A stretch of 56,958 bases of DNA from Candidatus Bathyarchaeota archaeon (GTDB lineage: Archaea; Thermoproteota; Bathyarchaeia; Bathyarchaeales; SOJC01). The stretch is taken from contig JAOUKM010000007.1 in NCBI GenBank assembly GCA_029882535.1, positions 1 through 56,958 of the forward strand, given 5' to 3'. Position 1 is the stretch's first letter, and every line of letters begins with the position of its first letter. The notes below the pieces were generated by a model. That model was not told the origin of the DNA. It did no database searches and saw only the letters and a list, made by a program, of their open reading frames with translations. The position numbers and the translations under genes are program-made. Below, piece after piece: positions 17,352-32,290 of this stretch.

Positions 17352-17522
17352 ACCGTGTTTTCTCCAGTTTGTGGTTCAACCTTAAAGGTTACATTCCAAC
17401 GGATCGAGCGTCCGCCAACGGCTTGTAGGTAACACAATGAGAATCCTAATAAAGCTTTTTCTAAACATATCCTGGCAATGAATTTATTAGCCACAGTTCA
17501 AGTAGCCTAGAACCGAAGGAAA

Positions 17523-31302: not shown

Positions 31303-31467
31303 CTTCTAATTTGTTACGTAACTTAGGCTATTGAGTTTTGCTAACAAAAAAGCATGTATTCGCTTTCTAATCTTTCGAAAACGCAACTCGCACAACCTTG
31401 GCAGCTTTCGATATAGAGATAGATTTATTGGAAAGAACCGTTAATTTGCATAATGCTCCGAGAATGG

Positions 31468-31564
31468 GCTCCGGTAGAAGCCAATTGTCTGCCGAATATA
31501 GCCCGGCTAAGTATTCCGGCCTTTCGAGCCGGAGACCCGGGTCCAAATCCCGGCCGGAGCACCA
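31468..31564 (+). tRNA. tRNA-Glu (TTC anticodon) with about 19-nt insertion in the D arm
   Basis: The acceptor GCTCCGG (31468-31474) pairs perfectly with CCGGAGC, followed by A73 and an encoded CCA (31562-31564). The anticodon stem-loop is CCGGC-CTTTCGA-GCCGG with anticodon TTC, and the T arm is CCGGG-TCCAAAT-CCCGG. After T8-A9-G10 there are 19 extra bases (31478-31496) before TATAGCCCGGC resumes the D arm. Removing them restores a G-T-A-T/G-T-A-T D stem. The insertion looks like a non-canonical archaeal intron. The leader repeats GCTCCG at 31455-31460. A GATTTATTGG box lies about 30 bp before it. Confidence 0.85.
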
Positions 31565-31630
31565 CTTTTAGTTTTAAGCCAAAAAGTAATAGGCAACTAA
31601 CAGATATTGTTCTGAGAAAAGGTGAGAATT

Positions 31631-32290
31631 ATGGAAAAATGGTTTGCGCGAAGACGGAAATCCAAGGTTCTCGAACTTGCGGATAGGCAGATGATTTTAG
31701 CCACAGACACGGTTGCGGATTTACAGAGAGCCGTAACTGCAGCTGCAAAAAACAACAAAAAAGAAGCTGAAACTCATATTGGACATTTGTCTAAAATTGA
31801 ACACGAAATCGATGAACTGCGAAGAACCATCTTTGAAGAATTAACAAAAAACACAATGGCTCCTCATGACCGCGAAGACATAATGCATCTCGTTAAAAGA
31901 CTGGATGAAATGGCGGACCACGTTAAAGATGCGGCGAGAAGCCTCGATTTAATACTTAAAATGGATATTCCAAAGGTTTTCTGGGAATTACTTGTTTATG
32001 TATCAACTAAACTGGTTGAATGCACGAGGATTTTGCGCCGAGCAATTGAGGCGCTTGGAACGAATCCGCCGGAAGCAAAAAGGCTTGCAATAACGATTGA
32101 TAAAATAGAGGGTGAAATTGACGCAAAATATCAAAAGATAAAGGAACTTTTTCTTCAACATTCAGACGAGATGAATGCGGCAACAGTGATTTTTCTTCGA
32201 GACTTGGCAGAAGAAATGGAGCATGTGGCAGATTCGTGCGATGATACTGCGGATTATGTGAGAATTCTTGCGGCTACAAGAGAATTCTAA
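31631..32290 (+). CDS. DUF47/PhoU-like helical regulator protein
   Basis: A 219-residue PhoU-type helical bundle (the frame opens at 31622, but the ATG at 31631 has GGTGAG upstream). Conserved acidic motifs for metal clusters are visible: HLSKIEHEIDELRR, KRLDEMADHVKDAARS and DLAEEMEHVADSCDDTADY. DUF47 proteins accompany phosphate or other anion transporters and modulate them. The next two genes encode an ABC importer, so co-function is likely. Confidence 0.88.
   Translation: MEKWFARRRKSKVLELADRQMILATDTVADLQRAVTAAAKNNKKEAETHIGHLSKIEHEIDELRRTIFEELTKNTMAPHDREDIMHLVKRLDEMADHVKDAARSLDLILKMDIPKVFWELLVYVSTKLVECTRILRRAIEALGTNPPEAKRLAITIDKIEGEIDAKYQKIKELFLQHSDEMNAATVIFLRDLAEEMEHVADSCDDTADYVRILAATREF

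Follow-up and report, generated by a model that had tools for sequence, protein, structure and literature searches.

A short D-stem intron and an associated leader copy of the acceptor strand in an archaeal tRNA-Glu(UUC) gene

A tRNA-Glu(UUC) gene interrupted between G10 and U11

The window analyzed here (the whole stretch of 56,958 nucleotides, contig 7 of a 1.73 Mb, 97.5%-complete genome) carries at 31468-31564 a tRNA-Glu(UUC) gene with 19 extra nucleotides (31478-31496) between G10 and U11. This matches the description in the first-pass annotation, a tRNA-Glu(TTC) with a 19-nt insertion at 10/11, and the same insertion was found again in about 39 genomes. The features of the locus, all on the forward strand, are listed below.

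31424..31429, + strand: TATA-like promoter element TTTATT; TTTATT(C/G)G is conserved upstream in relatives
31455..31460, + strand: leader copy GCTCCG (GCUCCG in RNA), putative surrogate 5' acceptor strand, able to pair in full with CGGAGC at 31555-31560
31461..31467, + strand: variable spacer AGAATGG, whose last bases would extend the outer helix
31468..31477, + strand: exon 1, GCUCCGGUAG, tRNA positions 1-10, from comparison with Glu(CTC) and intron-less orthologues
31472-31475, + strand: 5' strand of the central helix, C5-U8, in exon 1
31478..31496, + strand: 19-nt intron AAGCCAATTGTCTGCCGAA at 10/11, at the same site in about 39 genomes
31491-31494, + strand: intron strand of the central helix, GCCG, pairing with C5-U8
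31497..31564, + strand: exon 2, U11 to CCA, from sequence, Rfam match and exon search
31555-31560, + strand: 3' acceptor strand CGGAGC, within exon 2

Excision of 31478-31496 (AAGCCAATTGTCTGCCGAA) joins the exons so that GCTCCGGTAG is directly followed by TATAGCCCGG..., the same context as in the Glu(CTC) gene of this genome (GCTCCGGTAGTATAGTCCGG, locus L029) and in 43 uninterrupted Glu(TTC) genes of relatives. The excised product is a complete tRNA and CCA is present in the gene, confirming the intact arms and encoded CCA noted at first reading. The sister Glu(CUC) gene (L029) carries an ordinary intron after the anticodon, while its D arm is uninterrupted (GCTCCGGTAGTATAG), and this uninterrupted arm fixes the exon borders of the Glu(UUC) gene. 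The ends of the insert cannot slide to either side, so the position of the insertion is exactly 10/11. A split or permuted tRNA gene was ruled out, as both exons and the leader are collinear within 110 nt.

Counted from the first T of TTTATT, the leader copy is 31 nt away and the mature G1 44 nt. The 44 nt are at the long end for this genome, whose other tRNA genes mostly have the motif 28-42 nt from the mature start, and the spacing points to a probable start of transcription at or close to the leader copy.

ARAGORN made no call for the tRNA gene at 31468-31564, and the Rfam RF00005 match covered its 3' part alone (31495-31553, 30.5 bits). Such a failed call and low score would fit a degenerate or dead tRNA copy, the alternative that had been raised in the first-pass annotation. 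Against it, the check for a second Glu(UUC) gene found none in the 97.5%-complete genome, which leaves this gene as the sole Glu(UUC) found; its exons are intact, and insertion, motif and leader are conserved over families, as described below. A dead copy is thus hardly credible, and this reading was rejected.

The PhoU-like protein encoded at 31622-32290 matched, among named records, Bathyarchaeota MAGs only, and when orthologues were searched through this neighbor, the tRNA was absent from the 3-kb flanks of the relatives checked. Elsewhere in the window, 17368-17415 on the minus strand matched the eL15-Euryarchaeota ribosomal protein leader (RF03144, 37.8 bits); a match in a Bathyarchaeia genome is outside the named range of that family.

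Distribution and splice motif of the 10/11 intron

Exon 2 was used as query for orthologues in the family of the window. Those found in eight more genomes of the family all had an insertion of 18-31 nt exactly at 10/11 together with the leader copy. In four genomes of the same family (G007, G010, G011, G012) the exon-2 search gave no Glu(UUC) match; in these the gene may have diverged or been split further, or the assembly may lack it. Pattern scans were then extended over 257 genomes of the class, 398 of the phylum and one further family, and matches judged by eye to be non-tRNA were dropped (L136-L138, L167, L179/L219, and likely those in G210, G246 and G251). The results showed the 10/11 intron, 16-32 nt long, in about 39 genomes of nine families from Bathyarchaeia and other families of the phylum, a count that includes related and therefore non-independent genomes. 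The carrier families are f1, f4, f5 and f7 in the order of the window, f11, f13 and f22 in the same class outside that order, and f35 and f43 outside the class. In f22 and most members of f35, the intron sits on Glu(CUC). Named public records with both intron and leader copy are CP070835.1, CP070649.1, CP070683.1, CP070730.1, CP070765.1, CP070826.1 and CP070754.1.

Further introns were apparent in the Glu(UUC) genes of G185 and G186 (L168, L169), which besides the 10/11 intron and leader copy seem to have extra D-region introns and, near 70/71, an intron of about 30 nt that interrupts the 3' acceptor strand. Genome G031 has two Glu(UUC) genes (L128, L129), one with the 10/11 intron, the leader copy and a D-loop intron, the other with a D-loop intron only, without leader copy and starting where the leader copy would be.

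The splice motif was evaluated in 37 distinct intron genes. The intron lies so near the 5' end that the 4-bp central helix must use the tRNA's own C5-U8, three of which (C5, G6, G7) belong to the acceptor stem. In the 37 genes, C5G6G7U8 pairs with the intron bases just 5' of the 3' bulge (GCCG 20, ACCG 8, GCUG 1, GUCG 1, GCCA 7). All 4 bp are intact in 30/37 genes and 3 of 4 bp in the other seven, f4/f22 genes with GCCA and one mismatch. The bulges read AG^A in 33/37 and AN^U in 37/37, and AG^A and AA^T in the window copy. For the inner helix h', the first pair is A-U in 26 genes, G-C in 8 and G-U in 2, and the second is G-C in 29, C-G in 5 and A-U in 2. When the 3' sides of h' were dealt among the genes 5000 times, the shuffles gave a mean of 80.6 and a maximum of 111 pairs versus 143 observed, and none of the 5000 reached 143. 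Long, clear inner helices are present in L098, L107 and L159. In the window copy the inner helix of the bulged register is just 2 bp long, and this register has a rival in a continuous helix of 7 bp that lacks the 5' bulge. The pairing of GGTAGA with TCTGCC proposed earlier accordingly survives as a competing continuous register in the window copy, whereas the conserved pairing is that of C5G6G7U8 with GCCG/ACCG, followed by the AG^A bulge. The outer helix (UGG-G1C2U3 with A14G15CCCG) is only partly conserved, and on the exon side it is separated by unpaired bases.

This comparison indicated that 31478-31496 is a real intron, with the same site and motif conserved across families. The short D-stem intron suspected from the first inspection is supported by the conserved site, by a splice motif conserved with compensatory changes, and by the lack of a second Glu(UUC) gene.

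The class of splicing endonuclease, a check named with the original observation, was also determined from the genome, which encodes two tRNA-intron endonuclease subunits, with genes on C8 and C19. The catalytic residues of this enzyme are Tyr, His and Lys. One subunit was closest to the Aeropyrum catalytic subunit (chain 3p1z_B) and kept all three residues; the other aligned to the Methanocaldococcus enzyme and had neither Tyr nor His. Two kinds of subunit would point to the heterotetrameric alpha2beta2 type of assembly. The alpha2beta2 endonuclease has been linked to non-canonical introns (PMC4090602).

The leader copy and its predicted role in the precursor

All 37 distinct intron genes have a leader 6-mer, located 3-14 nt before the mature G1, that can pair in full with the 3' strand CGGAGC (GCTCCG 27, GCTCTG 8, GCTTCG 2), with at most one G-U pair each. 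Shuffled leaders reached such pairing in 1.7% of cases. The variants GCTCTG and GCTTCG are confined to sites that tolerate G-U, while the spacer, 3-14 nt long across genes, drifts freely in length and sequence. As the 3' acceptor strand never changes, the evidence for pairing is one-sided (G-U), with no two-sided covariation. In the same set, a pairing-competent 6-mer was present in 4/43 intron-less Glu(UUC) genes and 0/26 intron-less Glu(CUC) genes. Three of these four, the Glu(UUC) genes L119, L132 and L184 in relatives of intron carriers, keep the leader copy at the same locus, which likely reflects intron loss with the leader remaining. No other tRNA gene of the genome has an upstream copy of its own first six bases, and none of the three tRNA genes of the same genome with D-arm introns, Lys(TTT), Leu(CAA) and Leu(TAA) (L040 at C6:47600-47950, L033 on C21, L042 on C46), has a leader copy.

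To return to the carriers, an intron-only search of an evenly drawn phylum sample found 17 genomes, 16 of which were also found in a separate search for leader plus intron; in the 17th (G099) the gene is cut by a contig end and the leader copy lies on another contig. The intron-only scan ignored the leader, yet all 17 genomes have the leader copy, so the coupling is not a selection effect. Taken across genes, the leader seems to be a conserved, functional component and not an accident. The repeat GCTCCG at 31455-31460, which could compete for acceptor pairing, had been picked out correctly in substance by the first-pass annotation.

The leader copy could also be read as an exon, encoding positions 1-6 and joined to G7 by a second short intron in the acceptor stem. 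The same mature sequence would result, GCTCCG followed by GTAG. This arrangement is very improbable, because those borders do not allow a bulged 4-bp helix to be drawn, the spacer between them is free in length and sequence, the seventh leader base is not conserved as G, and the change of leader C5 to U (GCTCTG) would place a G-U pair in the mature acceptor stem.

The fold of the precursor was predicted by RNAfold for 35 genes, as secondary structure at 37 °C only. In all 35 precursors the predicted partner of the 3' acceptor strand was the leader, and in none of them the true 5' strand; in the window precursor the probability of leader/3'-strand pairing was 1.00. With the native leader, the splice helix had p>0.5 in 28/35 and was not the predicted fold in 7/35. 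When the entire leader was replaced by A, the true acceptor stem formed in 33/35 and the splice helix kept p>0.5 in 9/35. Changing the six-base copy alone to A gave the true acceptor in 19/35 and the splice helix (p>0.5) in 19/35; the acceptor was restored in only 19 because the spacer also pairs in some genes. In spliced RNA with the leader attached, RNAfold kept the leader paired in most cases and did not predict its displacement. Displacement must therefore rely on tertiary structure or enzymes, and it is the weakest link of the model.

We propose, with a probability of roughly three in four, that the locus is a functional tRNA-Glu(UUC) gene whose non-canonical splicing-endonuclease intron at G10/U11 is coupled to a leader acting as a decoy acceptor strand. 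Sequence and comparison support the site of the intron and its conservation, the covariation of the motif and the coupling of leader and intron, and folding supports the pairing of the leader in the precursor. In the precursor, leader GCUCCG would pair with the 3' acceptor strand and close a tRNA-like fold. With the 3' acceptor strand occupied by the leader, the true 5' strand would be left free for the intron; it would pair there and present the bulges to the alpha2beta2 endonuclease, which would cut, with ligation to follow. The 6-bp leader strand may then give way to the true 5' strand, whose 7 bp would stack on the T stem, and RNase P would remove the leader last, so that splicing would precede 5' trimming. 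On a broader view, to which we give about even odds, this leader-encoded mimic of an exon strand would be a conformational switch, holding a decoy acceptor stem until the D-stem intron is removed and forcing splicing before RNase P trimming, and the module of 10/11 intron and decoy leader would either be old or have arisen more than once within the phylum, on both Glu isoacceptors.

Two other roles of the leader copy were weighed against this evidence. The intron might be an ordinary non-canonical BHB intron and the copy a functionless relic of its origin, in which a short piece of the tRNA 5' end would have been duplicated. TACK archaea commonly carry non-canonical introns (PMC4090602), the intron-less L119, L132 and L184 show that the copy can exist without the intron, and in some Glu genes without the 10/11 intron (L123, L128) the tRNA starts at the leader-copy position. 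A neutral remnant, however, would decay like the spacer, whereas all 37 copies stay pairing-competent across at least two classes and both Glu isoacceptors, with leader changes only to G-U-compatible letters, and in-silico removal of the leader restores a closed acceptor stem and loses the splice helix. A relic is unlikely on these grounds. It is possible, if doubtful, that the pairing of the leader serves chiefly to shield the precursor or hold back RNase P, and so acts on processing order and not on the splice fold, a role compatible with the decoy model. In bacteria, leader pairing into the acceptor/3' end reportedly inhibits RNase P binding (PMC9433436), and Methanopyrus trims 3' and 5' ends before intron removal (PMC3695527), so that this gene would need an exception. 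Against it as the main role, the intron to which the leader is coupled has a motif that depends on the acceptor strand, and the tRNAs whose D-arm introns can do without that strand, Leu(CAA), Lys(TTT) and Leu(TAA), have no leader copy.

Meaning and comparison with known systems

The decoy model shows how an intron can be maintained even though its splice motif is at odds with the acceptor stem, as the leader retains a duplicate of the strand. If this is true, the 5' leader of these tRNA genes is in part functional and not disposable, RNA structure determines the order of maturation, which can run opposite to that in Methanopyrus, and these essential tRNAs will go on escaping gene finders that take no account of leaders. 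In the text of the open-access literature searched, neither a leader duplicating the acceptor strand nor a cis leader that replicates an exon strand in strict association with a single intron site was found.

The intron itself is of a known kind, the non-canonical archaeal tRNA introns, relaxed motifs included. Such introns have been described with BHB, hBH and HBh' motifs in the nomenclature of Marck and Grosjean (PMC4090602). Like them, the present intron is short, lies outside 37/38, and has a central helix of about 4 bp, putative bulged cleavage sites and alpha2beta2-type genes in its genome. Position 10/11 is absent from those named in the text of that report (20/21, 22/23, 25/26 ... and 3/4), and the introns differ further in that here the central helix uses acceptor-stem bases and a dedicated leader copy is present.

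In the split tRNA genes of Nanoarchaeum and Caldivirga (PMC3218864, PMC4033280), as here, a leader pairs elsewhere in the precursor so that a BHB-type motif forms. Unlike these, the present gene would give one transcript spliced in cis, and its leader mimics an exon strand while lying outside the BHB. The D-loop introns in the two tRNA-Glu of Methanopyrus kandleri (PMC3695527) offer another parallel, since there too a second, non-canonical intron of the D region is retained late; in that case 5' trimming comes first, on a mature acceptor stem, whereas the present gene is predicted to keep its acceptor strand engaged up to splicing. Finally, in the bacterial leader/3'-end pairing that slows RNase P, the leader likewise pairs with the 3' end of the pre-tRNA, and there it reportedly extends the acceptor stem (PMC9433436), whereas the leader of the archaeal gene would replace the 5' strand of that stem.
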